Below, piece by piece: positions 26,685-60,992 of a stretch of DNA of 64,000 nucleotides. The DNA lies in contig NZ_SSNH01000006.1 in the NCBI RefSeq assembly GCF_005877005.1, forward strand, positions 1-64,000, read 5' to 3'. How positions within the stretch are numbered: position 1 is the stretch's first letter; each line of letters begins with the position of its first letter. The notes beneath the pieces were generated by a model that worked only from the letters and a program-made list of their open reading frames with translations, was not told the origin of the DNA and did not search any database. Both the position numbers and the translations under genes were made by a program. The DNA comes from Sinomonas susongensis (GTDB lineage: Bacteria; Actinomycetota; Actinomycetes; Actinomycetales; Micrococcaceae).

Positions 26685-28062
26685 GTTCTCGTTGAACAGA
26701 TCTTAGGTGTTCGTCCCAGGCTTCGGCGGGGGTCCGCCATCCGAGTCGTTTCCGTGGCCGGGTGTTCAGGGCGTGTGCGACAGCGCCCAGGTCCTCGGGG
26801 CTCCATCGTGAGAGGTCGGTGCCCTTGGGAAAGTACTGGCGCAGCAATCCGTTCGTATTCTCATTCGTGCCCCGCTGCCAGGGGCTATGCGGATCGGCGA
26901 AATAGACCTTCAGGCCCGTATCGATGGTGAACTGAGCATGGGCGGACATCTCCTTCCCACGATCCCAGGTCAACGAGCGTCTGAGCTCGGCGGGCACCGA
27001 CTCCATCGCCTGCGCCAGAGCCTTGTTCATCGAGAGCGCCCCATAGCCGGAGAGGGAGGGCCCGTTCTTGGTCACCGGCTGCTCTCTCCACCCTTCCTCT
27101 CGGGGCAGGTGGACGAGGGTGGTGTAACCGGTCGTTCGCTCAACGACGGTGCCGATCGCGGACCTGTCGGTGCCGATGATGAGGTCCCCCTCATGGTGCC
27201 CGGGGATCGCACGGTCCTGGGCCTCGGCAGGACGCTCGCTGATGAGCACGTCCGGGGTCACATGGGCCCAGGCGACACGCTTGGCCCTCGCGCGGGGCAT
27301 CCGCAGCGCACGACCGGTGCGCAGGCACAGGATGAGCTCGCGGTTGAGCGCCCCGCGGCCCTCAATGAAGAGGGCCTGGTAGATGGCCTCGTGACTGATC
27401 CGCATGGACTCATCATCCGGGAAGTCGATCTTCAGCCGATTCGAGATCTGCTCGGGGCTCCATGCCTTGACCCATCGGCGGTCCTCACGGTGGGGCTTGT
27501 TCAGGCCTTTCCACTCCCGTTCCTGCGGGCCGGGAACGGCGTCGCCGTCAGGCATCGTGATCTTGCCCGAGAGGCGATCCTCCACGTACTCGCGCAGCCG
27601 ATCGTTCTCGGCGAGCTTGGAAGTCCTCGGGCGCCGCGCGTACAGCTCGGCCTTCCAATGCGCGACGCTGGCCCGATAGTCGAGCTTGCCGCCTCGGGTG
27701 GCGGCGTTGCGCCGCAGCTCCCTCGAGATCGTCGACGGGCTCCTCCCGAGGACACCTGCGATGCCGCGCACCCCTTCGCCGAGGGCGTGCAGGATCGCGA
27801 TCTCCTCACGCTCGGCGAACGAGAGGTACCGGCCAGACGGTGCCGGCCACGAGAAGGGACTCATTCCGCCAGCGTGCCGGAACCAACGCTGGCCAACAGC
27901 CTGCGCCACGCCCACCGCATCGGCCGCTTCCCGAGGGAGCTTCCCCGTGGAGATCTGGTCCCAGAACTCCCGCTCTTTTGAGCGCGGTCGGCTCGGCGCA
28001 CCCGGAGACCTCATCGGTGCCCTGCCCGTTACCTCACGCACCCACTCCGATGGTCTTCCCAC
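26665..28062 (-). CDS. IS30-family transposase
   Basis: The 465-residue protein has the IS30 layout. A helix-turn-helix lies near residues 75-125 (YLSFAEREEIAILHALGEGV, then RSPSTISRELRRN). The DDE domain has Asp in GHHEGDLIIG, Asp in LTWDRGKEM and Glu in RGTNENTNGLLRQY. The N-terminal 70 residues are an extension found in longer IS30 members. No frameshift or stop was seen, so the enzyme is probably active. Its stop lies inside the terminal repeat at 26665-26667. Confidence 0.95.
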   Translation of the reverse strand: MGRPSEWVREVTGRAPMRSPGAPSRPRSKEREFWDQISTGKLPREAADAVGVAQAVGQRWFRHAGGMSPFSWPAPSGRYLSFAEREEIAILHALGEGVRGIAGVLGRSPSTISRELRRNAATRGGKLDYRASVAHWKAELYARRPRTSKLAENDRLREYVEDRLSGKITMPDGDAVPGPQEREWKGLNKPHREDRRWVKAWSPEQISNRLKIDFPDDESMRISHEAIYQALFIEGRGALNRELILCLRTGRALRMPRARAKRVAWAHVTPDVLISERPAEAQDRAIPGHHEGDLIIGTDRSAIGTVVERTTGYTTLVHLPREEGWREQPVTKNGPSLSGYGALSMNKALAQAMESVPAELRRSLTWDRGKEMSAHAQFTIDTGLKVYFADPHSPWQRGTNENTNGLLRQYFPKGTDLSRWSPEDLGAVAHALNTRPRKRLGWRTPAEAWDEHLRSVQRERVATIS

Positions 28063-28081
28063 AACACCCTCCTGACCTCGG

Positions 28082-28105
28082 GTGTTGCGACCACCGGTTG
28101 AACCC
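28082..28105 (-). repeat. Terminal inverted repeat of IS30 (right end)
   Basis: Complement of the repeat at 26661-26684 with four mismatches; it lies 20 bases upstream of the transposase start at 28062. Confidence 0.85.
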
Positions 28106-28108
28106 CCT

Positions 28109-28111
28109 CAG
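28109..28111. repeat. CAG target-site duplication, right side of IS30 element
   Basis: Second copy of the CAG at 26655-26657, directly before the continuing OrfB codons. Confidence 0.88.
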
Positions 28112-28399
28112 TTCAGGTCCAAGAAGTACGTCCGGCTCCTGCGCTCCCACGGCCTGAAGGGGTCAATGGGAAGGGTCGGGGCGTGCGGGGACAACGCCGC
28201 CATGGAGAGCTTCTTCGCCCTGCTGCAGAAGAACGTCCTCGACACCCGCACCTGGGCCACCCGAGGCGACCTCCGCCTCGCGATCATCACCTGGATCGAG
28301 CGCACCTACCACCGACGCCGGCGCCAGCGCAGGCTACGCCGTTTGACCCCCATCGAATTCGAAGCAATCATGACCAAGACCGCCGCAGAGGCGGCATAG
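28112..28399 (+). pseudogene. IS3 transposase OrfB, 3' part
   Basis: Ninety-five codons continue OrfB from FRSKKYVRLLRS to the TAG at 28397. The catalytic Glu lies in AAMESFFALLQK and the usual IS3 tail in TYHRRRRQRRLRRLTPIEFE. There is no proper start codon; it is translated only if the IS30 element is removed. Together with 26064-26657 it gives a full integrase. Confidence 0.92.
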
Positions 28400-28403
28400 C
28401 CGA

Positions 28404-28430
28404 AGAGTCAACTAAACCTTCAGCAGTCCC
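28404..28430 (-). repeat. Right terminal inverted repeat of the IS3 element
   Basis: The outer 16 bases (28415-28430) are exact complements of the left end at 25708; the repeat begins five bases after the OrfB stop. Confidence 0.85.
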
Positions 28431-28433
28431 CAG
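28431..28433. repeat. CAG target-site duplication, right side of IS3 element
   Basis: Copy of the CAG at 25705-25707. Confidence 0.7.
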
Positions 28434-28442
28434 CGGAGCAAT

Positions 28443-28486
28443 CTGTTGAGGTCGCGCCGCCGTGCTGTTGAGGTTGCGCCCCCGTG
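28443..28486. repeat. Two tandem copies of a 22-bp repeat
   Basis: CTGTTGAGGTCGCGCCGCCGTG (given as two parts: CTGTTGAGGT and CGCGCCGCCGTG) is followed directly by a second copy with two substitutions. It lies 10 bases outside the IS3 element, in a gene-free strip upstream of the minus-strand glycosyltransferase stop. Confidence 0.7.
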
Positions 28487-28585
28487 CTCAGAGACATAAC
28501 GCCAGATCGGAGCATCTTTAGTTTAGGACGAGATTTCGCTCCCTGACTGCAAGGCGGGAGTACGGCGGAGCGAAGGCCTTTGAGA

Positions 28586-29548
28586 TCAGCGTCTCAACAG
28601 ATCGTGGTCCCACCTATTTGCGACTGCGCCCAAGAGATCGAGTACGAGGCGCTTCGGTGACCTTCCGTGAAGCCCCATGGCGCGCGAACTCCGACGAACG
28701 AACTCTGTTCGGCTAGCGCCCCAAAACCAAGAATCCCTGTCCTGAGAAGGCCCAAACAATGCAGCGAAGCCGCGGTCCTTCTCCGCCGGCAGATGCCATA
28801 AGGTGAGAGAGCCTTCATCGCCCCGCACTGTCCGGTATCGGTGCGCGGTCCAAATGCGTCTGGCGTACAGGTTCATCGGTTTCAACGGCACGCGGCGCAG
28901 GGCGTAGCTAAGGATGTGTTCTTCCGTCTTGAACCCTGGCTTGCCGTTTGCAAACCGTTCGAGAGCGTGGTGCCAAGCACGCTCTGAATTCTCGATTATG
29001 GACGCTGAGAGATGTTGGGGCACGAAATATGCCTCGCCTCCGATATGCTCGGGGATTCCTTCGGGCATTTCCAACTCGACGTGCAGCTGAGCGGCCTCGC
29101 GTCTCGAAAGCCCGTTTATATCATCATCGACTGGTGTATCTAGGATAATACCCGAGGCAAAGCCTTCGATTTGATCCATCAACAGGGCTATTGGTGCGAT
29201 ACACAGGACATCTGGATCCAGATACAGAACATCGCGCCCTGCTAGGACTGGGAGGGCGTCCAGAAGAAAAAGGCACCCTTCGAACTGATTCATGAACCCT
29301 TTAGGGGGCCTGTGGGCAAACGAGGTTATATAAACCTCAACATTTAGTCTCTCTAACCATTCTTGATAACCACGACGGAGTTCAGAATTCGTCACAAGAA
29401 CGAGCTCGATATCACTGTTCCATCGTGACAGCGAAGCAAAGGCGACTGCCATGGCACGCATGTAAGACTCTGTAGGATCGGTCTTCCGGCGAAGATTGGG
29501 GTTTTGGTGGGCGTCAGTTTGAACAAATGGAATAGCAGCGGTGATCAT
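28586..29548 (-). CDS. Glycosyltransferase, GT-A fold (nucleotide-diphospho-sugar type)
   Basis: The 320-residue protein has a Rossmann-like N-terminal half and the metal-binding D-x-D in VLYLDPDVLC near residue 110. Further conserved-looking parts are MNQFEGCLFLLDALP before it and EAYFVPQHLS and KTEEHILSYAL after. This arrangement fits a GT-A glycosyltransferase, possibly GT8-like. It is the last gene of a leftward operon (acetyltransferase to this gene) and lies four bases from the polymerase stop. It probably adds a sugar to the exopolysaccharide repeat unit; the donor is unknown. Confidence 0.7.
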   Translation of the reverse strand: MITAAIPFVQTDAHQNPNLRRKTDPTESYMRAMAVAFASLSRWNSDIELVLVTNSELRRGYQEWLERLNVEVYITSFAHRPPKGFMNQFEGCLFLLDALPVLAGRDVLYLDPDVLCIAPIALLMDQIEGFASGIILDTPVDDDINGLSRREAAQLHVELEMPEGIPEHIGGEAYFVPQHLSASIIENSERAWHHALERFANGKPGFKTEEHILSYALRRVPLKPMNLYARRIWTAHRYRTVRGDEGSLTLWHLPAEKDRGFAALFGPSQDRDSWFWGASRTEFVRRSSRAMGLHGRSPKRLVLDLLGAVANRWDHDLLRR

Positions 29549-29551
29549 AAT

Positions 29552-31105
29552 TCAATTCCCTGCTTCCAGGTTTCCAAAGGGCGCCGATTCTGAAGCTCTG
29601 CCGATCGATATCACTCGATACCCGACCAGGAGCACTGCTAGATATGCCATCGATTGGAGCAGCGAGCCACGGAGGACGAGTATCAGATAGAAGGGAAGGA
29701 TGCACCCCAAGACCCCGGGTAGTCCGGTGTGACTGATGGTTTCGTCAAGCCTACGGTCAAGCTTAGAAATAACAAGACCAAGCACAAACATGCCCACAAT
29801 TAGGAGAACGATTCCACCGTTTATCAGTAGTTCCCCCCAGATGGGTTCTGAGAGGTTCGTGAAGCCGTATCCTTTGAACTGCGCTACAAGCACTCCAGTG
29901 TCGATGGGCTTACCCGGCCAGATGCTCCTAGGTACCCAGAAGAGAAGCACGCCTGCGAGCTGCGATCCCCCGACCTCTCCACGTACGTGCACATATTCGA
30001 GAGTGTTGACGATTTGGGAGTAGCTGTCGAAGTCCCCACTGAGCATCGATGTTAGTGGACTCTGTGACTTGACCGTTGGAGACAGAGACCATCTGAACAT
30101 GTCCGCAATTGGGAAGACATAAATCATGCCCACGAGGGACGTGATCGAAAAGATGCGGAATCGACGAACACTGGATACCGCACCGTACGAGGTCACGAGC
30201 GCCAGGGCGGCGGTTCCGAAAATGTAGCGAGCACTGCTTATGGGATTGGTGCTGATGACGAGTGAGATTAGAGAAACGATAAATAGGAGACTTGGCACGA
30301 CTCGACGGCTATAGCCAGTGTCTATCCGGCGTAAAAAGATCTGGGCTACGACGCAGACTAGGAGCCCCATCTGCGTGAGCGCGGTGAAGATGGCGGCTGT
30401 TGTTGAATCCGGCCAGATCCGGCTGCGAATCGAGTCCAGCGTCATTCGGCTCGAGAAGAGCTGCATAAAGCCTACGCGCGATGCGTAATATCCAAAGATG
30501 CCCAGAGTTATAACGGTCAGTAACGTGACCGCCCTGTGGTTTGGTATCGAAGCCCTCGGTCGAGCCTCCGGGGTCGCTGATTGCATAGAACGGTGTGATT
30601 TACGTTGGATCTGACCAAGCGCGACGCCCAACAGCATGACGACGCAGCCTATTAGGATCGCTCCGCTGGCTTCCCAATCCAAGTCATGATTGACCGAAGC
30701 GGTCGTGTCTGTGTCCTGACCGAAGCGAAGCTGGACGAACGGCGCGATTCCGAGGAATGCATAGGCAAACAGCCAGAACGTCATTTCGAACAAGCGGCGT
30801 CGATGGGAGGCAATTATGAAGGAGAATCGAAGAGCTGACAGTTCAACGACAAGGAGCGGGCCGAGGGCGTGACCTTGGGAATGGTCCGCACCAGTTGCCA
30901 GAATGAGGACTAGCGGGGCTATTGCCCCCAAACCTATCCACGTCAAAGTGCCGACCAGTGGGGACCGTTGGCTGAGGTCCCGTCTTACGGGTCGAACGCG
31001 GACGTCTTTAGTTCCAGCGGTCGCCGCACGTTCCCCGGGTGTCCTCGGTTGTTTCAGGTCTGCTCCCTCAGTGCGATTGAGATCGGCAATCTGACTTGAT
31101 GTCAT
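29552..31105 (-). CDS. Wzy-like polysaccharide polymerase (O-antigen polymerase type)
   Basis: The 517-residue product has a soluble N-terminal stretch of about 45 residues and then about 11-12 hydrophobic segments. A large outside loop lies in the second half (about residues 315-385). This topology, the lack of any enzyme motif and the position between initiating transferase and glycosyltransferase genes fit a Wzy polymerase. The composition is AT-richer than flanking genes, as usual for Wzy. The ATG at 31105 has GGAG nine bases upstream and leaves a 1-base gap to the previous stop. Confidence 0.75.
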   Translation of the reverse strand: MTSSQIADLNRTEGADLKQPRTPGERAATAGTKDVRVRPVRRDLSQRSPLVGTLTWIGLGAIAPLVLILATGADHSQGHALGPLLVVELSALRFSFIIASHRRRLFEMTFWLFAYAFLGIAPFVQLRFGQDTDTTASVNHDLDWEASGAILIGCVVMLLGVALGQIQRKSHRSMQSATPEARPRASIPNHRAVTLLTVITLGIFGYYASRVGFMQLFSSRMTLDSIRSRIWPDSTTAAIFTALTQMGLLVCVVAQIFLRRIDTGYSRRVVPSLLFIVSLISLVISTNPISSARYIFGTAALALVTSYGAVSSVRRFRIFSITSLVGMIYVFPIADMFRWSLSPTVKSQSPLTSMLSGDFDSYSQIVNTLEYVHVRGEVGGSQLAGVLLFWVPRSIWPGKPIDTGVLVAQFKGYGFTNLSEPIWGELLINGGIVLLIVGMFVLGLVISKLDRRLDETISHTGLPGVLGCILPFYLILVLRGSLLQSMAYLAVLLVGYRVISIGRASESAPFGNLEAGN

Positions 31106-31106
31106 G

Positions 31107-32582
31107 TTAATACGCTCCGGCTCGAGAAAGTACCGCGCGGATAGTGCGGGCAAGAATTAGTAGGTCCTGAGTGAGAGACCAGTTCTCGACGTAGTAAAGA
31201 TCTAGGCGGAGCGCATCCTCCCAAGAGAGGTTGCTCCGACCCGAGACCTGCCACGACCCAGTGATCCCGGGTTTCACTAACAATCTCCGGTGAGCAAAGT
31301 CGTCGTAGCCGATCACCTCGGATGGAAGCGGGGGGCGGGGACCGACTAGGCTCATTTCTCCGCGGAGGACGTTCAGCAGCTGGGGAAGTTCATCGATGGA
31401 GTACTTCCGGATTACTTTGCCCAAGCGGGTGATCCGGGGGTCCTGCTTCATTTTGAAGAGGAGGCCGGCGCCATCGTTGTGCTGGCGCAACGACTCCAGC
31501 CTTGCTTCGGCATCCGCAACCATCGAACGGAACTTGAACATCCAGAACGGCGCCCCGGCGCGGCCCACCCGTTGTTGACGGAAGATGGCGGGGCCCTTGC
31601 TGTCGAGGCGAACGAGAAGTGCGACGAGACCCATTGGCAGAGCAAGGAGGGCCAAAAGAGTCACCGAGGTGAGGATGTCAAAACTGCGCTTGATGACACG
31701 CTTTGAGCCCTCAAGCTTCGGTGTCGTCACGTGAATAAGGGGCAGCCCGGCGACGGGCTGAGTCCGAATGCGGGGCCCGGCGACGTCGGTGAGCGCCGGG
31801 GCCATGATCATACCGATGTTTCTGGCAGCTAATTGCCAGCCCAACTGGCGTAGGACCATGGGGTCGAAGGCTGCTCCCGCGGTGATCGCGACTGCAGTCG
31901 CTGCCGAGTCGCGGATCGCCTCGAGAACGTCGTCAATCCCCTTGCCGTGACCGATGACGGGAAGGGGGCCGGACTCCGTCTGAATCGACTCTAATGATGA
32001 TGGTTCCGGCATGTGCGCGGCTACAGGGAGGTAGCCCGCTTCCGGGTGCATGCTTAGCTGCCGGTGGAGATGACGTGTGGTGTGTGGTCCGCCTATAAGC
32101 AGTACACGTTGAAGTCCTCGGCCCTGCTGTCGCTTGGCGACGAGTGTTGCACGAACGATCCATCGCCCAGCCAGGAGACTGACGATTCCGAGTGGCAGAG
32201 CGATCGCCACGTAACCCCTGGCGGTGTCAAGCTGGAAAACATAGGAAATGATGGCTACCGCACCGAATAACCAAAGCGTCGACTTGATGACCCGGCGGTA
32301 TTCCTCGGGGCCATAGCCCAGAACTTGGTCCTCCCGGCTCCCGCCCGTTCCGAGAACTAGCCACCATGTGACGATCAACAGAAGAGAAATGAAGGTGTAC
32401 GACGTTCGCTGATTGCCGACGTCCAGGGACTGCTCGTTGCCACCGAACCTGGCGATCTGGGCGCCGATGGTAGCCCAAGCGATGCACAAAAGGTCCACCA
32501 CGAGCATGCGGCGCTGCGCCGCTTCCAGAACGCGGTTGGCTTCACGCAATTGAGGCTGGGCCTCATCTCGGATAATGCTCAT
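31107..32582 (-). CDS. Polyprenyl-phosphate sugar phosphotransferase (initiating sugar transferase)
   Basis: The 491-residue protein has an N-terminal region with four to five membrane segments and a Rossmann-like CoA-binding-type domain. The C-terminal catalytic domain starts with KRSFDILTSVTLLALLALPM and has GPAIFRQQRVGRAGAPFWMF, KFRSMV, RKYSIDELPQLLNVLRGEMS and LVGPRPPLPSE, all typical of the WbaP/WcaJ family. It starts repeat-unit synthesis by moving a sugar phosphate onto undecaprenyl phosphate. The ATG at 32582 has GGGGGAAG upstream, so the longer upstream frame was rejected. Confidence 0.93.
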   Translation of the reverse strand: MSIIRDEAQPQLREANRVLEAAQRRMLVVDLLCIAWATIGAQIARFGGNEQSLDVGNQRTSYTFISLLLIVTWWLVLGTGGSREDQVLGYGPEEYRRVIKSTLWLFGAVAIISYVFQLDTARGYVAIALPLGIVSLLAGRWIVRATLVAKRQQGRGLQRVLLIGGPHTTRHLHRQLSMHPEAGYLPVAAHMPEPSSLESIQTESGPLPVIGHGKGIDDVLEAIRDSAATAVAITAGAAFDPMVLRQLGWQLAARNIGMIMAPALTDVAGPRIRTQPVAGLPLIHVTTPKLEGSKRVIKRSFDILTSVTLLALLALPMGLVALLVRLDSKGPAIFRQQRVGRAGAPFWMFKFRSMVADAEARLESLRQHNDGAGLLFKMKQDPRITRLGKVIRKYSIDELPQLLNVLRGEMSLVGPRPPLPSEVIGYDDFAHRRLLVKPGITGSWQVSGRSNLSWEDALRLDLYYVENWSLTQDLLILARTIRAVLSRAGAY

Positions 32583-51241: not shown

Positions 51242-52312
51242 CTAGTTTTCCTCGGACGGCGCGCCCACCGAGGCGCGTTCGACGAGGTGTGCTCTGAGCG
51301 GGAGCCGCTCCGCGGGGACGCGGTGCCCGAGCCTCCGCAGGAGCGCCCGCGCTGCCTCCCGGCCCATGTCGTACACGGGCTGGGCCACCACCGTCAGAGG
51401 GGGCTCCACGAGTTCGGTCCAGGGAAAGTCGTCGTAGGCGACGACGGAGATGTCCTCGGGAATACGCAGCCCGCGGCGCTTGATGTGCCCGAGTACGCCG
51501 AGGGCGATGAGGCTGTCCGAGCAGACGACGGCGGTCGCCGGCGCGGGCCGGTCGAGCAGCTCGGCGCACGCCGCGGCGAGGGTGTCATCGCTGAAGGCGT
51601 TGAGCTGGACGAGCGTCGGGTCCCATTCGTCTTCGGCCTCCGTGAAGGCTTGCTCGATCCCGCGGACGCGGTCGGCGACGGGGGAGAGCCCAAGGTCCGC
51701 GCCGGGCTCGTAGGGCCCGTCCGTGCGGAGGCTCGAGACGTAGCCGATCCGGCGGTGCCCCGCGTCGAGGAGGAGCCGCCCGACCTGCAGGGCTGCGTCT
51801 GCGAAGTCGACCCGCACGGTGTCGAGTTCGAGGCCGTGGATCCCGCGGTCGAAGAGGACGACGGCGCGCCCCCGCTCCTGCGCCGATCCGAGATGGGCTG
51901 TCTGGGTGCTCGAGCAGGGCGCGACGACGAGGCCGGCCACCCGCTGCTGCAGGAGCTCCTGGACCGCGCCCACCTCGGCGTCGAGATCCTCGTCGGTGTT
52001 GACGAGCACGACCGTGTAGCCCGCGTCGCGGACCTCGTCCGAGATCCCGCGGAGGGCGAGCCCGAAGTGCGCGTTCTCGATATCGCCGACGACGACGCCG
52101 ATCGAGTTCGAGCGTCCAGTCGTCATGCTCCTGGCGACCTGATTGGGCCGGTAGCCGAGCTGTTCGCTCGCCGCAATCACGAGGGACAGCACCTGCTCGC
52201 TCACTGCTCCGTAGCCGCCAAGTGCCCTTGCCGCCTGCGCCTTGGACACTCCCGCGGCACGCGCGACGTCGGCGACGGTGGCCTCCCTCACTGGCTGCTC
52301 TCGCTTCGTCAT
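51242..52312 (-). CDS. LacI-family transcriptional regulator
   Basis: The 356-residue protein has a helix-turn-helix at about 11-32 (ATVADVARAAGVSKAQAARA), a hinge with QLGYRPNQVARSM, and a periplasmic-binding-like ligand domain ending in DDFPWTELVEPPLTVVAQPV. It is divergent from an ABC transporter operon. Two identical palindromes lie between the genes, so it is the likely repressor of that operon. The ATG at 52312 is chosen, with GGGATG before it. Confidence 0.92.
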   Translation of the reverse strand: MTKREQPVREATVADVARAAGVSKAQAARALGGYGAVSEQVLSLVIAASEQLGYRPNQVARSMTTGRSNSIGVVVGDIENAHFGLALRGISDEVRDAGYTVVLVNTDEDLDAEVGAVQELLQQRVAGLVVAPCSSTQTAHLGSAQERGRAVVLFDRGIHGLELDTVRVDFADAALQVGRLLLDAGHRRIGYVSSLRTDGPYEPGADLGLSPVADRVRGIEQAFTEAEDEWDPTLVQLNAFSDDTLAAACAELLDRPAPATAVVCSDSLIALGVLGHIKRRGLRIPEDISVVAYDDFPWTELVEPPLTVVAQPVYDMGREAARALLRRLGHRVPAERLPLRAHLVERASVGAPSEEN

Positions 52313-52384
52313 AACTGCATCCCATCCGAAAAAAGAGATTGACGCCACACGGCAACGTAAGTACAGTCACATCATCCCTGAAGT

Positions 52385-52423
52385 TGAGACCGGTCTCAAA
52401 CTGAAGAACTGAGACCGGTCTCA
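52385..52423. promoter_or_regulatory. Two identical LacI operators in the divergent promoter
   Basis: TGAGACCGGTCTCA occurs exactly at 52385-52398 and again at 52410-52423, with centres 25 bases apart. Both are perfect 14-bp palindromes with a central CG, the standard shape for LacI-family operators. They lie 72 bases from lacI and 20 bases before the transporter gene, so binding would block the transporter promoter. Confidence 0.85.
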
Positions 52424-52443
52424 CCAAAGCGAAAGACGGACGA

Positions 52444-53265
52444 ATGAAAAGCATCAAAGCAGCGGCCCTCGCCGCGGCGGCCGCCCTGGCCCTCTCGCTG
52501 TCCGCCTGCGGCGGCTCGAGCACCGCATCCACCACGGACAATCCCTACGGACTCATCACCCCGGGCCAATTCCGGGTCGCCAGCGTCGGCGACTCCAAGC
52601 CCTACACGTTCACCGACTCGTCCGGGAAGTTCACCGGCTTCGACGTCGAGCTCTTCACCGACGTGGCCCACCGCATGGGCATCAACAACGTCGTCTTCAC
52701 AGGCCAGGACTTCTCGGCCATCCTGCCGGCGGTGGCCAACGGCCAGTTCGACGTCGGCGCCGCCGCCATCGGAATCACCGACAAGCGCAAGGAGACCGTC
52801 GACTTCTCCGACGGCTATCTCGCCGGCTACCTGACCGTCCTCACGACGAAGACGTCGTCCGTGACGGGCACCGACAGCCTCAAGGGCAAGCGGCTCGGGG
52901 TCGTGCAGGGGACGCTGCAGGAGACCTACGCCATGAAGAACTTCCCGGACGCGAACCTCGTGCGGTTCCCCGACAACAACGCGGCGGTCGCCGGGCTGAA
53001 CTCCGGAAGCATCGACGCTCACTTCCTCGACTACGAGGCCGCCAAGGACTACGTCACGAAGTTCGGCCTCAGGGATGCGGCGGACATCCCCTCGTTCGAC
53101 GCCCCCGCGGGCTTCGCGATCGCGAAGAACAAGCCAGCCCTCAAGGACGCGCTGAACAAGGCGCTCAAGGCCGCAATGGCCGATGGCACGTGGAAGCGCC
53201 TCTACCAGAAGTGGTTCCCGGGCTCGCCCATGCCGAAGCAGTATCTGCCGGCCTCCGACCAGTAA
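52444..53265 (+). CDS. Amino-acid-type ABC transporter substrate-binding lipoprotein
   Basis: The 273-residue protein has a signal peptide with lipobox LSAC. The type 3 solute-binding fold is seen in [15 protein letters not shown] and [20 protein letters not shown], with [17 protein letters not shown] and a late [12 protein letters not shown]. These are the polar amino acid/opine family motifs. It delivers substrate to the permease and ATPase encoded downstream. First gene after the two LacI operators. Confidence 0.9.
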
Positions 53266-53324
53266 ATGAGCGGGCGGGGGCGCGGCCTCCGCGTCCCCGC
53301 CCCGCCTCGACGGAAAGCACCACC

Positions 53325-54104
53325 ATGGACCTGCTCGACAGCCTCACCAAGACCTTCTTCGACTTCCAAGCCATGGCCGACGTCCTGCCCCAGCTGCTGC
53401 AGGTCGGCCTCGTCAACACCCTCGTCATCTCGATCTGCGCCACCGTGATCGGCTGCGTCATCGGCATGATCGTGGCCCTCATGGGCATCTCGCCCTCCTC
53501 CTGGATGCGATGGCCCGCCCGGGTCTACACCGACCTGTTCCGTGGCCTGCCGGCCATCCTGACGATCCTGCTGATCGGCCAGGGCTTCGCCCGCGTGAGC
53601 CAGCAGATCTTCGGCCCCAGCCCCTACCCGCTCGGCATCATCGCGCTGAGCCTCATCTCGAGCGCCTACATCGGCGAGATCTTCCGTGCAGGAATCCAAG
53701 CCGTGGACAGGGGACAGCTCGAGGCCTGCCGCGCCCTGGGCATGGGCTACGGCCGGGCGATGCGCCTCGTCGTCATCCCCCAGGGGATCCGCCGCGTGCT
53801 CCCAGCGCTCGTCAACCAGTTCATCGCGATCGTCAAGGACTCGAGCCTCGTCTACTTCCTGGGCCTGCTGGTCTCGGAGCGCGAGCTGTTCCGGGTCGGC
53901 CAGGACGCCGCCGTGCTGAGCGGAAACCTCTCGCCGCTCGTCCTCGCGGGGCTGTTCTACCTCATCATCACCGTTCCGCTCACCCACCTGGTCAACTTCA
54001 TCGACCAGCGCTTCCGCACCGGCCGCCGCAGGGCCGCACCGCCGGTTTCGGGCCTTCGTGAGGTAGTCGAGCTCGAGACGGCCGGCGTAGCAGAAAGCAG
54101 ATGA
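53325..54104 (+). CDS. Amino-acid-type ABC transporter permease
   Basis: The 259-residue product has five to six hydrophobic segments. The permease loop motif for ATPase contact is [20 protein letters not shown], followed by [20 protein letters not shown], both typical of the HisM/polar amino acid class. The ATG at 53325 is chosen; upstream codons belong to the previous gene. It ends in an ATGA overlap with the ATPase gene. Only one permease is encoded, so it should work as a homodimer. Confidence 0.9.
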
Positions 54105-54892
54105 CGATGACCTCCCCAACCGAAACGCGCAGGCGCACCATGACGAACTCCGCCAGCCAGGCCTACACGGGCGCTGGCCTCGAACTCAAGGACCTGACGC
54201 TCGCCTACGGCGACATCGACGTGGTCCGGAACATCAGCCTCCACGTCGAGCCCGGAACCACCACGTGCATCATCGGACCGTCCGGCTCCGGCAAGTCCAC
54301 GCTGCTCCGCGGCATCAACCGGCTCCACGAGCCGAAGTCCGGGGACGTGCTCCTCGACGGCGAATCGACCCTCGGCCAGCACCCGGACCAGCTCCGCAGG
54401 AAGATCGGCATGGTCTTCCAGCACTTCAACCTCTTCCCCGACCACTCGGCGCTCGAGAACGTGGCGCTCTCCCCGTGGAAGGTCAAGCGGCTCTCCAGGA
54501 AGGCAGCCTTCGAGCTCGCGTATGCCCGGCTCGACGAAGTCGGCCTCCGGGAACGCGCGGACCACAAGCCCCGCGACCTCTCCGGCGGTCAGCAGCAGCG
54601 CGTGGCCATCGCCCGCGCACTCGCGATGGAGCCACAGGTCATGCTCTTCGACGAGGCCACATCCGCCCTCGATCCCGAGCTCGTCAACGGAGTCCTCAAC
54701 CTCATGGCCAGCCTCAGCGGCCGGGGGATGACGATGGTCGTGGTCACCCACGAGATGGGCTTTGCCAGGCGGGCCGCCAACCAGGTCGTCTTCATGGACG
54801 AGGGCCAGGTCGTCGAGACCGGCACGCCCACGGACATCTTCGACCGACCGCAGTCGGCCCGGCTCCAGCGCTTCCTCTCGGAGGTGCTGTGA
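54101..54892 (+). CDS. Amino-acid-type ABC transporter ATP-binding protein
   Basis: The 263-residue ATPase has Walker [10 protein letters not shown], the Q-loop in [12 protein letters not shown], signature LSGGQQQR and Walker [13 protein letters not shown], followed by the switch His in VVTHEMGFA. All are as in the GlnQ group. The start overlaps the permease by four bases; its TGA overlaps the next gene's ATG by one base. Confidence 0.93.
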
Positions 54893-55962
54893 TGATGTCG
54901 CGCCCTCCGATCTCCACCGCCATCGTCGGCTTCGGCGTCTCCGGCGGCGTCTTCCACGGCCCCTTGATCGGGGCGAACCCGTCCTATTCGGTGGCTGCCG
55001 TCGTGACCGGCAACCCGGCCCGGGTCGCTGCCGCCCGCAGTCGCTTCCCCCAGGCCCGCATCGTGCCCGACTATCGGTCGCTCCTTGGGCTCGTCGACGA
55101 CGGAACGCTCGAGCTCGACGTCGTCGTGCTCGGCACCCCGCCAGCGCTCCACCGGGAGCAGGCGCTGGCCGCCGTCGCCCGTGGGCTGCACCTCGTCGTC
55201 GACAAGCCGTTCGCCCCCTCCATCGAGGATGCGCAGGCGATGATCGACGCCGCCCGTGAGGCGGGCACGCTGCTCACCGTGTTCCAGAACCGCCGCTGGG
55301 ACGGCGACTTCCTGACCGTCGCGGAACTCGTGCGGTCCGGGCGGCTCGGCGACGTGCGGACCTTCGAGTCACGCTTCGAGTGGTGGCGCCCCGAAGGCTT
55401 CGGGAACTGGCGGGACGGCGCGTCGGTGGACGACGGCGGGGGTCTCCTGACCGACCTCGGCAGCCACCTGATCGACCAGGCAGTCCAGCTCTTCGGTCCC
55501 GTCGAGGAGGCCCGCGCCGACCTGCGACGGTACAGCACCGGGCCGGGCGGGGACGAGGACAGCTTCGCCGAGCTGCGGCACGCCTCCGGCGTCACGAGCC
55601 GCCTGTGGATGAACGGACTCGCGCCCGCCCTCGGGCCTAGGTTCCACGTGCTCGGCAGCCAGGCGGGATTCACGTCGTGGGGGCTCGACGGCCAAGAGCC
55701 CGCCCTCGCTGCCGGCGCCGATCCGGCGAGGCCCGGCTACGGCGCGGTCCCCTCCCGAGAGCCCGCGCAGCTCGCGGACGGCAGCTCATCACTCGACGTC
55801 GGCCTCGTCCCGGGAGACTATCCGGCCTTCTACCGCCTGCTCGCGGACGCCATCCGCCGGAACGGGCCCGTCCCCGTCGACCCGGACGAAGCCCTCGCGA
55901 CCCTCCGGATCATCCGCGGGCTCCACGCGAGCACGCCGGTCCGATCCCTCGCCTACACCTGA
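54892..55962 (+). CDS. Gfo/Idh/MocA-family oxidoreductase
   Basis: The 356-residue enzyme has a Rossmann domain with AIVGFGVSGGVFHGPLI, the DKPFAPSIEDA motif (the usual EKP), and GGGLLTDLGSHLIDQAVQLF, where the family's catalytic His lies. It is an NAD(P)-dependent dehydrogenase for sugars, imines or related compounds. It is coupled to the transporter by a one-base overlap. The substrate is presumably that of the transporter. Confidence 0.9.
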   Translation: MMSRPPISTAIVGFGVSGGVFHGPLIGANPSYSVAAVVTGNPARVAAARSRFPQARIVPDYRSLLGLVDDGTLELDVVVLGTPPALHREQALAAVARGLHLVVDKPFAPSIEDAQAMIDAAREAGTLLTVFQNRRWDGDFLTVAELVRSGRLGDVRTFESRFEWWRPEGFGNWRDGASVDDGGGLLTDLGSHLIDQAVQLFGPVEEARADLRRYSTGPGGDEDSFAELRHASGVTSRLWMNGLAPALGPRFHVLGSQAGFTSWGLDGQEPALAAGADPARPGYGAVPSREPAQLADGSSSLDVGLVPGDYPAFYRLLADAIRRNGPVPVDPDEALATLRIIRGLHASTPVRSLAYT

Positions 55963-55984
55963 GATGAAGAGGAAGAATCACGAA

Positions 55985-57121
55985 ATGCCCGAGAACCAGA
56001 ACCTCCGCAACCCTGCCAGCCGCCGCAGCGTCGCCGTCCTCGGCGGAGGTGTCATCGGTGTCTCCACCGCCGTCCACCTGCTCCGCTCGGGGGTCGACGT
56101 CACGCTCATCACCGAGGGCGAGCTCGCATCCGGCGCTTCGGGCCGGTCGCTCTCGTGGCTGAACTCGGCCGGAACGCGGAGCCTCGAATACCACGCCCTG
56201 CGCATGGCGGGCATCGACCGGTACCGGACGCTCTTCGCCGATGATCCGTCGAGGGAATGGCTCCAGTTCGGCGGCGGGGTCTATTGGGACAACGACGGCG
56301 GTGCCGCCGCACGGAACGAGTACGAGCGCGCGCACGCCTATGACTCCCACCTCGTCGGGCCTGACACCGTCGCCGACTTCACCCCCGGCCTGAACGCCAG
56401 CGCTCTCGCACCCACCTCCGTCTACAACCCGGGCGAAGGGTGGGTCAGCCTGCCGCATCTCATCGGGCACCTCATGGCCGAGTTCACCCGCCGGGGCGGG
56501 GTCCTGAGGACCAACGCGGGAACGGCGCGGGTCGAGGTCGACGACGCCGGGCGCGCCACCGGCGTCGTCACCCCTGCCTTCGGGACCCTCGAGGCCGACG
56601 CCGTCGTCGTCGCCTGCGGTGCCCACACGCCCGACGTCGTCGCGCCGCTCGGAGTGCGGATCGACAATGCCTCCCCGGTTGCCATGCTCGTGGTGACCGA
56701 GCCGTTCGAACACGACGTCAAGGCCGTCCTCAACACGCCCCGCGCCGCGATCCGTCCGAATCCCGGGAACACGATCGCCGTCGACCACGACTGGTACGAG
56801 GAGCACATCGTGCGCGACGGCTCCGGGTATTCGATTCCGGAACCCGTCGTGGGCGAACTCCTCGCGGAGGCCAGCCGGCTCATCGACGGTGAGCCGGAGC
56901 TCAAGGCCGCGTCCTGGAAGATCGGCCTCAAGCCCATCCCCGGCGACGGCGAGCCGGTGTTCGGCGAGCTCCAGAAGGTTCCCGGATGCTTCGTGGCGTT
57001 CACCCATTCCGGTGCGACGCTCGCGCTCATCGCGGGCGAGCTCTTGGCCGACGAGGTCATCACCGGGGGGCGGCATCCCATGCTGGCGACGTTCCGCCCG
57101 GAAAGGTTCGAGCAGAACTAG
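55985..57121 (+). CDS. FAD-dependent oxidoreductase (D-amino acid oxidase/DadA-like)
   Basis: The 378-residue protein has the dinucleotide-binding motif VLGGGVIGVSTAVHLLRSG and GASGRSLSWLNSAG after it, typical of the DAO superfamily. Its C-terminus has KPIPGDGEPVFGEL and FVAFTHSGATLALI, the second FAD-contact region. It should oxidise the C-N bond of an amino acid, D-amino acid or opine-like substrate. The ATG at 55985 has AGGAAG nine bases upstream; one at 55964 lacks this. Confidence 0.87.
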   Translation: MPENQNLRNPASRRSVAVLGGGVIGVSTAVHLLRSGVDVTLITEGELASGASGRSLSWLNSAGTRSLEYHALRMAGIDRYRTLFADDPSREWLQFGGGVYWDNDGGAAARNEYERAHAYDSHLVGPDTVADFTPGLNASALAPTSVYNPGEGWVSLPHLIGHLMAEFTRRGGVLRTNAGTARVEVDDAGRATGVVTPAFGTLEADAVVVACGAHTPDVVAPLGVRIDNASPVAMLVVTEPFEHDVKAVLNTPRAAIRPNPGNTIAVDHDWYEEHIVRDGSGYSIPEPVVGELLAEASRLIDGEPELKAASWKIGLKPIPGDGEPVFGELQKVPGCFVAFTHSGATLALIAGELLADEVITGGRHPMLATFRPERFEQN

Positions 57122-57133
57122 CACCGCCCGATT

Positions 57134-57176
57134 GCCGGCTTTGGAGGGCGCGCGGCGCGCGCCCTCCAAAGCCGGC
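57134..57176. terminator. Very strong bidirectional hairpin terminator
   Basis: A perfect 20-bp stem (57134-57153 with 57157-57176) has a 3-base loop and lies 13 bases after the FAD enzyme gene. It separates the LacI-controlled operon from the ole cluster. Confidence 0.9.
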
Positions 57177-57282
57177 ACCTCCGCGAGAGGGCTATAAGTC
57201 GGACTGCGTTATATCTTGGGCTTGCGCTTATGTGGGTACAGTCTCCGCATGAATGCAGCACGGAAACGGACAGGGGCTCGAC

Positions 57283-58305
57283 TTGGCAGGGAACGCGACT
57301 TTTCGGCACAGCAACACGGCGCTGCTTTCGGTGAGCAGTGTCGAGGCCCCGAGGATCGTGAGTTCCAGGGATTTTGACCGCAGCTTGGCATCGACCCTGA
57401 GGCGGCTGAAATTCCCGCCCCGGCTGCTTGAGCGCGTTGCCGGCATTTCGCACCGTCGCTGGTGGGCCCCGGGGACATCGTTCGATGACGCCGCGGTCGA
57501 AGCGGGCGCCAAAGCCTTGGCCGAGGCTGGCGTGGAAGCCGCCCAGATCGGCCTCCTGATCAACACCTCGGTCACGCGGCGCAACCTCGAACCGTCCGTC
57601 GCGGTGAAGATCCACCACAAACTGGGCCTGACGTCGTCCGCGATCAACTTCGATCTGGCCAACGCGTGCCTTGGATTCGTGAACGGCATGATCCTGGCGG
57701 CCAACATGATCGATTCGGGCCAGATCAAGTACGCCGTGGTCGTCAACGGCGAGGACTCCCAAGCGGTCCAGGAGACCACTCTGGCACGACTGCAGCGGCC
57801 CGAGACCACCCGCGAAGACTTCAGCCGGGAGTTCGCCACGCTCACGCTTGGATCGGGCGCCGCCGCAGCAGTCCTTGGCCCCGCGGACGAGCACCCGGGG
57901 GCGCACCGACTTGTCGGCGGGGTGATGCGTGCCGGCACCGAACACCACGAATTGTGCGTGGGAGGCATCGACGGGATGGCCACCGACGCGAAGGGCCTGC
58001 TCGACGGCGGCCTCCAGCTCGTCGTCGACGCCTGGAAGGAAGCCCAGCCAGAGTGGGACTGGGCCGCCATGGACCGCTATGTCACGCACCAGGTCAGCAA
58101 CGCCCATACCCAGGCGATCATCAAGGCCATTGACCTGGACCCGGACAAGGTTCCGATCACGTTCCCGCACTGGGGCAACGTGGGCCCTGCCTCGCTCCCC
58201 ATGACACTCGCAGCCGAGGCGCAGTCACTCACCTCGGGGGACCGGATCCTGTGCATGGGCGTCGGCTCAGGGCTGAACGCGGGCATGGTGGAAATCGTTT
58301 GGTAG
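57283..58305 (+). CDS. oleA: OleA, condensing enzyme of long-chain olefin synthesis
   Basis: The 340-residue thiolase-fold enzyme has the active-site Cys in LANACLGFVNGM (about residue 129), a His in DRYVTHQVSNAHTQ and an Asn-containing loop in HWGNVGPASLP. The FRHSNTALLSVSSVEAPRIV start and RRLAGI-like HRRWW pattern match OleA, which condenses two fatty acyl-CoAs to a beta-keto acid. TTG at 57283 is preferred (MAGNATFRH as in OleA proteins; ACAGGGG upstream); an ATG at 57253 adds ten residues. The next gene overlaps its end. Confidence 0.93.
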   Translation: MAGNATFRHSNTALLSVSSVEAPRIVSSRDFDRSLASTLRRLKFPPRLLERVAGISHRRWWAPGTSFDDAAVEAGAKALAEAGVEAAQIGLLINTSVTRRNLEPSVAVKIHHKLGLTSSAINFDLANACLGFVNGMILAANMIDSGQIKYAVVVNGEDSQAVQETTLARLQRPETTREDFSREFATLTLGSGAAAAVLGPADEHPGAHRLVGGVMRAGTEHHELCVGGIDGMATDAKGLLDGGLQLVVDAWKEAQPEWDWAAMDRYVTHQVSNAHTQAIIKAIDLDPDKVPITFPHWGNVGPASLPMTLAAEAQSLTSGDRILCMGVGSGLNAGMVEIVW

Positions 58306-60992
58306 CCGCCAACTGGCCCGGGTTCGACCCAGAATGGTCCCGGACGATCGCCGTCGAGTCCACATCGGCCGTTGACGTGCCAGGCACGGTGCGCCGCTGG
58401 CACCTGCTGGACAACGCTGCCCAGCTCTCCCGCAATGGGCTGCCTCCCGAGGGCACCCTGCTCTGCGTCCACGGCAACCCGACCTGGTCGTATCTGTGGC
58501 GGACGCTGCTGGCCGCCGGATCCGACCCGGCACATCCGTGGCGCGTGGTGGCCGTGGACCAGCTGGACATGGGCTACTCGCAGCGCACCGGCACGTTCCG
58601 GCGCCTGGCGGACCGGATCAATGACCTGGGCGACCTCACCGACGCGCTGGGCCTGGACGGGCCCGTCGTGACGGTGGGCCACGACTGGGGCGGGGTGATC
58701 AGCCTGGGCTGGGCCCTGGCGCACCCGCAGCACCTCACCGGGGTGGTGCTCACCAACACGGCCGTCCACCAGCCCTCCGGTTCGGGAATCCCGCCCGCCC
58801 TGAGGCTGGCCCTTCACCCCGCCGTGCACCGGTGGGGCACGACGACGTCGGACGCCTTTCTGCGGGTGACCCACAGTCTGGCGAATCCGCCACTGCCGGC
58901 CGACGTCCGAGGGGCCTACATGGCCCCCTACCGCCGAACCGACCGCCGGGCGGGGGTGGGAAATTTTGTTGCCGACATTCCGGTGGATGCGTCCCATCCC
59001 AGCTTTGCCTCCCTCAGGGGCGTCGCGGAAGGCCTGCGCGGCCTGAGGGTACCGGCCCTCATGCTCTGGGGCCCCCGGGATCCCATCTTCTCCGACCGCT
59101 ACCTCAAGGACCTCATCGGCCGGCTTCCGCACGCGGAAGTGCACCGCTTCGAAGGCGCCGGGCATCTCGTGGCGGAAGACCGGGACATCGCCGCACCGAT
59201 CTTCCGGTGGCTCGCCGTGCACAGGGGTCCGAGCGGAAGCGATTCCCGGGCGCCGGGAGCCACCTCGACCCCTCGACAGGGGCCGAAGGCCACGGCTGCA
59301 CGCGATCCCGAATTCCGGCCCCTCTGGAACCTTCTCGGCGAGCAGGCGGCGGGGCCGTCGGGCGGAGATGCCGCCGTGGTGGAAATGGCGGAGGACGGCA
59401 CCCCGGCCCGCTCGCTCACCTGGAAGCAGCTGGAGCGGAACATCCTGGACGCTGCCGCGGGGCTGCGGGAAGCCGGGGTGGGGAGCGGCAGTCGAGTGAG
59501 CCTCATGGTTCCGCCTGGGGTGGACCTGACCGTGGCCCTGTACGCCTGCCTGCGGCTGGGCGCGGTGGTGGTTGTGGCCGACGCCGGGCTGGGAACCCGG
59601 GGCCTGAGCCGCGCGGTGAAGGGCGCCACGGCAGATTTCATCATCGGAATCGACAAGGCGCTGGCTGCTGCCCGGACGCTCGGCTGGCCGGGACGGCGGA
59701 TCAGCGTCCGGGACCTCCCGGGCGCCGTCGGCCGGATCCTGGGCGTCGAAACCTCCCTCGACGCGCTGGCCCGGTCGGGCGCCGGACGCGGCTCGGGGCA
59801 CTCCATGCACACCGTGGACTCAGCTGACCCAGCCGCCGTGCTGTTCACCTCGGGCTCGACCGGTCCCGCCAAGGGGGTGCTCTACACGCACGGGCAGCTG
59901 GCGGCAATGCGGGACACGGTGGCCGCTACGTTCGGGATCCGTTCCGGTGCGCGGCTCGTGGCGGGCTTCGCCCCGTTCGCCTTGCTCGGCCCCGCGCTCG
60001 GAGCGGTTTCGGTGACCCCGGCCATGGACGTCACGGCTCCCCGCACCTTGACGGCCCGCGCGCTCGCGGACGCCGCAGCGGCGATAGACGCAACGGTGGT
60101 CTTCGCCTCGCCGGCGGCGCTGCGCAATGTCCTTGCCACCCGGGACGGCATGGACGAGGCAGGGCACAAGGCCCTCGAACGGGTCGAGCTGCTGCTGTCT
60201 GCCGGGGCGCCTGTCCCAGAACCGCTTCTGGCGGAGGTGCAGCGGCTCATGCCGCGGGCCTCGCTTCACACCCCGTATGGGATGACCGAGGCGCTCCCGG
60301 TCACCGATATCAGCCTCGAACAGATACAGGCGGCCGACGCCGACGCTGCCGCCGGCACCGTGGCCGGAGCAGGCAACGGCGTGTGCGTGGGAACGCCGGT
60401 CGACGGCGCGCGCATTGCCGTCGTCCCCTTGACGGCGGACGGCACCGCACCCGGGCGTCACCCCGTGACGGACGCTGGCGTGACAGGCGAGATCCTCGTC
60501 AGCGCCGCCCACGTCAAGGAAGCCTACGACCGGCTCTGGCTGACCCAGCAGGCGAGCGCTAGCCTGCCCGGATGGCATCGGACGGGCGACGTGGGGCACT
60601 TCGACGCCGTCGGCCGGCTCTGGGTGGAGGGCCGTCTCGCCCATGTCGTGACGGCGCCCGGTGCCGTTGTGACGCCCGTGGGCGCCGAACAGGCCATCGA
60701 ACGCCTCGACGGCGTCCGCCTGGCCGCCGTCACCGGAGTCGGACCGGCAGGGACGCAGGCCGTCGTCGCCGTCGTCGAGACCGTACCGCCCGCCCGCAAG
60801 GCCGGTCCCGCCGATCCCCGGCTCGCCGCGCGCGTCCGCCGCGCGGCGCTCGAGGCTGGGGTCGATGTCTCCGCTGTGCTCGCGGTCCCCGCTCAGCCCA
60901 CGGACATCCGGCACAACGCGAAGATCGACCGGACCCGCCTGTCCCGCTGGGCTTCACGGGTCCTGGCCGGTGGCCGCCCGGGAGAGCCGTGA
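58299..60992 (+). CDS. oleBC: OleBC fusion: beta-lactone decarboxylase and beta-lactone synthetase
   Basis: The 897-residue protein joins two enzymes. Residues 1-315 are the alpha/beta hydrolase OleB, with oxyanion HGNPTWSYLW and nucleophile Asp in VGHDWGGVIS. Residues 330-897 are the adenylating OleC, with FTSGSTGPAKGVLYTH, YGMTEALPVTD and HRTGDVGHFD. OleC forms a beta-lactone from the hydroxy acid, and OleB removes CO2 to give the alkene. This fusion is typical for actinobacteria. The TTG at 58299 has GGTGGA six bases upstream and lies inside the oleA end. Confidence 0.93.
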   Translation: MVAANWPGFDPEWSRTIAVESTSAVDVPGTVRRWHLLDNAAQLSRNGLPPEGTLLCVHGNPTWSYLWRTLLAAGSDPAHPWRVVAVDQLDMGYSQRTGTFRRLADRINDLGDLTDALGLDGPVVTVGHDWGGVISLGWALAHPQHLTGVVLTNTAVHQPSGSGIPPALRLALHPAVHRWGTTTSDAFLRVTHSLANPPLPADVRGAYMAPYRRTDRRAGVGNFVADIPVDASHPSFASLRGVAEGLRGLRVPALMLWGPRDPIFSDRYLKDLIGRLPHAEVHRFEGAGHLVAEDRDIAAPIFRWLAVHRGPSGSDSRAPGATSTPRQGPKATAARDPEFRPLWNLLGEQAAGPSGGDAAVVEMAEDGTPARSLTWKQLERNILDAAAGLREAGVGSGSRVSLMVPPGVDLTVALYACLRLGAVVVVADAGLGTRGLSRAVKGATADFIIGIDKALAAARTLGWPGRRISVRDLPGAVGRILGVETSLDALARSGAGRGSGHSMHTVDSADPAAVLFTSGSTGPAKGVLYTHGQLAAMRDTVAATFGIRSGARLVAGFAPFALLGPALGAVSVTPAMDVTAPRTLTARALADAAAAIDATVVFASPAALRNVLATRDGMDEAGHKALERVELLLSAGAPVPEPLLAEVQRLMPRASLHTPYGMTEALPVTDISLEQIQAADADAAAGTVAGAGNGVCVGTPVDGARIAVVPLTADGTAPGRHPVTDAGVTGEILVSAAHVKEAYDRLWLTQQASASLPGWHRTGDVGHFDAVGRLWVEGRLAHVVTAPGAVVTPVGAEQAIERLDGVRLAAVTGVGPAGTQAVVAVVETVPPARKAGPADPRLAARVRRAALEAGVDVSAVLAVPAQPTDIRHNAKIDRTRLSRWASRVLAGGRPGEP

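Follow-up and report, generated by a model that had tools for sequence, protein, structure and literature searches.

Which compound do five co-directional genes at 52444–57121 of a Sinomonas susongensis contig (NZ_SSNH01000006.1) take up and oxidise? They lie in a stretch of 64,000 nucleotides, here called the window, from a Sinomonas-like genome of 3.77 Mb, and encode in order a substrate-binding protein, the permease and the ATPase of an ATP-binding cassette (ABC) transporter, a Gfo/Idh/MocA dehydrogenase and a flavin adenine dinucleotide (FAD) enzyme whose nearest relatives are in Sinomonas gamaensis (83%), S. atrocyanea (80%) and S. albida (79%). A preliminary description made from the sequence had proposed an Amadori compound or an opine as the substrate. 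Our analysis indicates that the operon very likely serves the inducible catabolism of Amadori compounds, the N-(1-deoxyfructosyl) amino acids, of which deoxyfructosyl-glutamine (DFG, santhopine) is one example. This interpretation is based on homology to the soc genes, the closest solved binding protein, a shared operator core and the sole SocD-like locus above 30 bits in Arthrobacter sp. NtRootA1. The system is already known from Agrobacterium and Arthrobacter, and the window holds a Sinomonas-like soc operon in which SocB is split and the dehydrogenase is of another kind.

The santhopine/DFG genes socR and socABCD are placed beside repABC on plasmid pAtC58 in passages of PMC4231840. We compared the first 15 kb of pAtC58, in which the labels SocA to SocD and SocR were assigned from gene order and annotation. 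The features of the window locus are the following.

51242..52312, (-) strand: LacI-family regulator, SocR-like, 356 aa (Pfam LacI and Peripla_BP_3; 45% identity to pAtC58 SocR over 342 aa)
52339..52367, (+) strand: promoter-like TTGACG-17-TACAGT ahead of the operon, from sequence
52384..52399, no strand: putative operator 1, palindrome TTGAGACCGGTCTCAA with a 14-bp core, from sequence
52409..52424, no strand: putative operator 2, CTGAGACCGGTCTCAC, with a 14-bp palindromic core, 25 bp from operator 1
52444..53265, (+) strand: substrate-binding protein, SocA-like (SBP_bac_3; 5L9O/5LOM, E 3e-101; 62% identity to SocA over 261 aa)
53325..54104, (+) strand: ABC permease (BPD_transp_1; 68% to the N-terminal half of SocB over 256 aa)
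54101..54892, (+) strand: ABC ATPase (ABC_tran; 69% to the C-terminal half of SocB over 247 aa)
54889 (GTG) or 54892 (ATG) to 55962, (+) strand: Gfo/Idh/MocA oxidoreductase in the position of SocC (YvaA, 3gdo, E 4.6e-59)
55964..57121, (+) strand: SocD-like FAD-dependent amine oxidase/dehydrogenase, putative fructosyl amino acid oxidase (DAO; 51% identity to SocD over 370 aa)
57133..57177: 22-bp perfect inverted repeat 3′ of the last gene, a possible stem-loop

The five genes likely form one operon opposite the divergent LacI gene. Their junctions are, in gene order, a gap of 59 nt, an overlap of 4 nt, an overlap of 1 to 4 nt and a gap of 1 nt; stop and start codons overlap between permease and ATPase and between ATPase and dehydrogenase, and 1 nt separates the dehydrogenase gene from the FAD gene. 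Together with the family matches, these junctions confirm the earlier account of five coupled genes for an ABC transporter with one permease, a Gfo/Idh/MocA enzyme and a D-amino-acid-oxidase-like FAD enzyme. That account began at 52385, where the 14-bp core of operator 1 starts, and left the LacI gene outside. The gene order, the homologies and the conserved operator pair are features of the sequence itself. The locus has what marks a soc operon: a SocA-type binding protein, a SocB permease and ATPase (as two separate genes), a SocD FAD enzyme and a divergent SocR-like LacI with a shared operator.

Among solved structures, the binding protein is closest to the deoxyfructosyl-amino-acid binding protein 5l9o/5lom (342 bits, E 3e-101). 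The entry 6hqh, deposited under another name, scores 341 bits, and the next solved match only 152 bits. Read by eye, the N-terminus is lipoprotein-like (LSAC). The SocA match is also well separated within whole genomes, with 349 bits against 141 for the next match in the window's genome and 345 against 150 in that of NtRootA1. Nopaline-binding proteins are found among the matches as well, at about 90 bits. They speak for a true opine operon, in which a flavin opine dehydrogenase would be combined with a transporter for a sugar-free opine (an N-carboxyalkyl amino acid), and so does the closest fold of the FAD enzyme. The structure model of this enzyme (predicted local distance difference test score 89.8) has as Foldseek rank 1 the entry 7fgp, titled as an Aureimonas flavin-containing opine dehydrogenase (E 4.6e-32, 27% identity, same fold), which is also its sole solved sequence match at E ≤ 1e-10 (E 7.8e-34). 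However, 27% identity to 7fgp compares with 51% to SocD, and 90 bits for the nopaline-binding protein with 342 for the deoxyfructosyl binding protein; LacI and a sugar-type dehydrogenase would also suit a sugar-bearing substrate better. A true opine operon is thus very improbable. Of the two substrates first proposed, the Amadori compound is strengthened by the pAtC58 soc homology, 5L9O/5LOM, the operator core and NtRootA1, while the simple opine loses ground on the same identities and bit scores.

After 7fgp, the FAD enzyme is closest in fold to CmiS2, glycine oxidases, a proline dehydrogenase and sarcosine oxidases, enzymes that for the most part have amines of amino acids as substrates. The DAO and SBP_bac_3 families also contain many amino acid proteins, as would be expected for an operon that uses a plain or D-amino acid. 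Against this, the FAD enzyme reaches 59 bits with the NCBIfam D-amino acid dehydrogenase model (cut-off 383) and 56 with that of glycine oxidase (cut-off 251), and the homology to SocA and SocD is much closer; we consider such an operon barely credible. Plain amino acids, D-amino acids and simple opines were rejected as substrates, each on the grounds given above. The Amadori interpretation is further in line with the genomes of NtRootA1, SJCon and M2012083, where no SocD-like gene outside this locus scores above 30 bits. In NtRootA1 the SocD match at the locus scores 431 bits and the other match 21 bits.

The gap in front of the operon holds candidate regulatory sites. Two copies of TGAGACCGGTCTCA (52385–52398 and 52410–52423, starts 25 bp apart) lie downstream of TTGACG-17-TACAGT, and exact copies of this 14-bp core occur in the 3.77-Mb genome at these two sites only. 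With up to two mismatches we counted 11 places, including the operator pair, against 8 in a reversed control, and we claim no further target. The gap between the LacI and binding-protein genes of pAtC58 carries TGAGACCGGTCTCA and TGAGACCGGTCTCT, 21 bp apart, and has a 12-bp core in common with the window.

To describe the distribution of this arrangement we used 82 loci, the best 80 of 143 relatives by FAD-enzyme identity plus two (L088 and L089) added by hand. In the gene-content counts, a cut-off of 200 bits was applied to binding protein, permease, ATPase, LacI and dehydrogenases. All six genes are present in 53 of the 82 loci, and a divergent LacI/binding-protein pair in 66, counting L084, which has an extra gene inside the gap. 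At least two sites with no more than one mismatch to GAGACCGGTCTC are found in the gap of all 66 loci with the divergent pair, and 133 of the 135 such sites fall inside LacI/binding-protein gaps (1,336,031 positions scanned). The spacing is 24–26 bp in most Actinobacteria (exceptions are L061 with 32 and L072 with 13), 21–23 in Alphaproteobacteria, 44–47 in enterobacteria and 103 in Halotalea. In most Micrococcaceae loci other than those of Sinomonas, GAGTCCGGTCTC comes first and GAGACCGGACTC second, a single sequence in both orientations. In the 75 nt ahead of operator 1, the word TTGAC occurs in 66/66 loci, compared with 4.9/66 in base-shuffled controls, at a distance of 44–47 nt in 56 of them; the full -35/-10 pattern is seen in 55/66, a count made without a shuffled control. 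In a genus sample, the FAD enzyme is present in 6/15 genomes and the operator pair in the same six. In a family sample, the pair is present in at least 30 of 295 genomes, against 0 among the matches listed for the reversed control; 30 is a lower bound, as the pattern covered spacings of 22–28 bp only and mismatches only at two A/T positions. A keyword search at the level of titles and abstracts, without the operator letters, found no published description of the conserved pair, which may be in print, and the main text of a LacI regulon survey (PMC4052901) makes no mention of Amadori or fructosyl compounds, opines, fructoselysine or the 12-bp core.

A different palindrome, TGATACCGGTATCA, occurs in L017 (12552), L024 (12563 and 9332) and L055 (9300), with one copy on the window's contig outside the window (C33:79430); in L017 and L024 it adjoins a second LacI gene (38%). 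Among plasmid records at E ≤ 1e-40, 248 carry a soc-type binding protein and 262 the FAD enzyme, mostly from Rhizobium and Agrobacterium, with 19–20 from Klebsiella and 10 from Pantoea.

The dehydrogenase is the gene product that differs most from the known operon. It shows just 28% identity to SocC over 178 aa, belongs to a different Gfo/Idh/MocA subfamily and is not its orthologue. Its nearest solved relative is YvaA (3gdo, E 4.6e-59), and all nine NCBIfam models listed for it fall below cut-off (best 198 of 330 bits). The part of PMC10433868 that deals with YvaA equates it with IolW, an NADP-linked scyllo-inositol dehydrogenase. Given this kinship, the dehydrogenase might act on inositol. 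It could then be the main catabolic enzyme of the operon, with an inositol or some other free sugar as substrate, and the FAD enzyme would be secondary. But of the 66 soc-type clusters, 53 carry the window type of dehydrogenase. Another 5 carry the SocC type, and in 8 the fetched locus shows neither; the 13 clusters that lack the window type keep the binding protein, the ABC parts, the regulator and the FAD enzyme. Moreover, family-3 (SBP_bac_3) binding proteins mostly have amino-acid-type ligands. We regard a primary role on inositol or a free sugar as most unlikely. Because of the 53/5/8 split, the dehydrogenase looks exchangeable among soc-type clusters, and we did not take a SocC orthologue as defining for a soc operon.

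In the scheme that we infer for ligand, reaction, dehydrogenase step and repression, sugar-amino acid conjugates from decaying plant matter are very probably imported and split by oxidation. The binding protein would capture the conjugate, and one permease, probably as a homodimer, would import it with one ATPase. The FAD enzyme would oxidise the bond between C1 of the sugar and the nitrogen, and hydrolysis of the imine would release the free amino acid and glucosone, with H2O2 if the acceptor is O2. The Gfo/Idh/MocA enzyme would probably use NAD(P)H to reduce glucosone at its 2-keto group and so make it available to sugar metabolism. A ring form of glucosone would resemble scyllo-inosose, and this likeness together with the YvaA kinship suggests the dehydrogenase as a glucosone reductase, the least secure step of the scheme. 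When substrate is absent, LacI would bind both palindromes close behind the promoter and thereby block it; substrate or product would release LacI.

Several observations weigh against this interpretation. The closest fold of the FAD enzyme is an opine dehydrogenase, with 27% identity, and fungal amadoriases are found neither among the 50 fold matches listed nor by sequence at E ≤ 1e-10. The FAD enzyme occurs without a complete soc transporter in 16 of the 82 loci, some of them on short contigs. For the eight proteins searched, no NCBIfam equivalog reached its cut-off among the matches listed (ATPase best 25 of 189); families alone therefore give only an "amino acid-like" substrate. Finally, the dehydrogenase step is weakened by the non-orthology to SocC and by the 8/66 clusters with neither dehydrogenase.

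Some relatives of the FAD enzyme stand beside hydantoinase/oxoprolinase genes. A HyuA gene is present in 10 of the 82 loci, and HyuB too in eight of these. The eight loci with a SocD-like FAD enzyme, window-type dehydrogenase, HyuA and HyuB are L069 (3192–9056), L070, L071, L074, L076, L078, L068 and L037, and the four genes are in line in seven loci (five Amycolatopsis, Pseudonocardia and Nonomuraea). Transporters in these eight loci are of the major facilitator superfamily or, in L037, of the family-5 binding protein type. LacI of the five Amycolatopsis loci and Pseudonocardia is 42–44% identical to that of the window, and by eye, paired near-palindromes TGAGAACCTTCTCA/TGAGAAGGTTCTCA or close copies precede hyuA in the six Amycolatopsis/Pseudonocardia loci, which a perfect-palindrome scan did not return. 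The LacI of Nonomuraea, at 193 bits, misses the cut-off of 200, and its locus has GAGAACGTTCTC as palindrome. In S. gamaensis (L008, 2093–3214), a second SocD-like FAD enzyme (59%) and HyuA directly adjoin the soc operon. A tree of 83 FAD enzymes (of 84 rows; L037 was dropped for an in-frame stop) places seven Hyu rows and two Streptomyces rows in one supported group apart from the window's, and two further Hyu rows (L008, L063) elsewhere on long branches. Alignment A1 holds 32 of the 84 rows, again without L037; alignment A2 holds 15, and no claim is based on it. The in-frame stop is a single one in the matched FAD-gene stretch of L037 (8001–9131). In the two Streptomyces loci (L073, L077), the gene for the FAD enzyme comes after those for an ABC transporter of family 5 (oligopeptide type), and the fetched stretches contain neither a soc-type LacI nor a window-type dehydrogenase.

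We tentatively propose, as a possible but rather doubtful extension, that Amycolatopsis, Pseudonocardia, Nonomuraea and one Arthrobacter re-use FAD enzyme and dehydrogenase in a second, HyuAB pathway, which in the six Amycolatopsis/Pseudonocardia loci would be governed by the related LacI through an operator pair of its own. Before a SocD-type oxidation, the lactam ring of fructosyl-pyroglutamate (cyclised santhopine) would be opened by HyuAB, and the novelty of the window would be a dehydrogenase acting as glucosone reductase in the place of SocC. The literature passages searched held no description of such a sister module of FAD enzyme, dehydrogenase and hydantoinase/oxoprolinase, and the matches listed made no mention of fructosyl pyroglutamic acid. 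As the window's genome has no close HyuA, just a partial match of 31%, the variant is not part of its own system.

Elsewhere in the window, the genes downstream at 57253–60992 resemble, from their translations, those for an OleA-type thiolase and a fusion of hydrolase and AMP-ligase, and may belong to a long-chain olefin pathway. The GC fraction at 28001–32000 is 0.573, compared with 0.70–0.72 at the window ends.

With the soc operon recognised, genes often annotated as "ABC transporter substrate-binding protein" or "FAD-binding oxidoreductase" can be named as putative Amadori-compound catabolism in Sinomonas-like soil bacteria and, on the strength of the operator pair, also in enterobacteria and further Micrococcaceae. 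The operator provides a DNA-level marker for the soc-type system. The variable dehydrogenase and the hydantoinase variant raise enzyme questions, namely the fate of glucosone and the use of cyclised Amadori compounds.

Compared with socR-socABCD of Agrobacterium fabrum C58 pAtC58, the window has the same gene order and divergent LacI, 45–69% protein identity for all products except the dehydrogenase, and the 12-bp operator core twice. It differs in that SocB is fused on pAtC58 and split into permease and ATPase genes here, in a dehydrogenase from another Gfo/Idh/MocA subfamily and in an operator spacing of 25 instead of 21 bp. Plasmid p2 of A. tumefaciens F2 has the gene order of the pAtC58 soc genes, and its depositors named the products deoxyfructosyl-amino acid transporter periplasmic binding protein, deoxyfructosyl-amino acid ABC-type membrane transporter, deoxyfructose oxidoreductase and fructosyl amino acid oxidase. 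The tobacco-root strain NtRootA1 (L034) shares all six genes and the pairing of operators with the window; its FAD enzyme is 63% identical, and its operators are GAGTCCGGTCTC/GAGACCGGACTC, one sequence in both orientations. In a tobacco-root isolate collection, isolates carrying soc genes degraded santhopine, as described in passages of PMC8262997, which indirectly supports DFG uptake and growth on DFG through such an operon; NtRootA1, which its main text does not name, may belong with these strains. Fungal amadoriases, or fructosyl amino acid oxidases (FAOX), yield an amine, glucosone and H2O2 according to sections of PMC5813194, the overall reaction proposed for the window, but they do not match its FAD enzyme among the 50 folds listed or at E ≤ 1e-10. 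The frl-type fructosamine kinase-deglycase pathways of B. subtilis and E. coli likewise use Amadori compounds as nutrients, as outlined in parts of PMC12632257, and this is also proposed here; these pathways phosphorylate and then cleave, whereas the window operon contains neither a kinase nor a deglycase gene.

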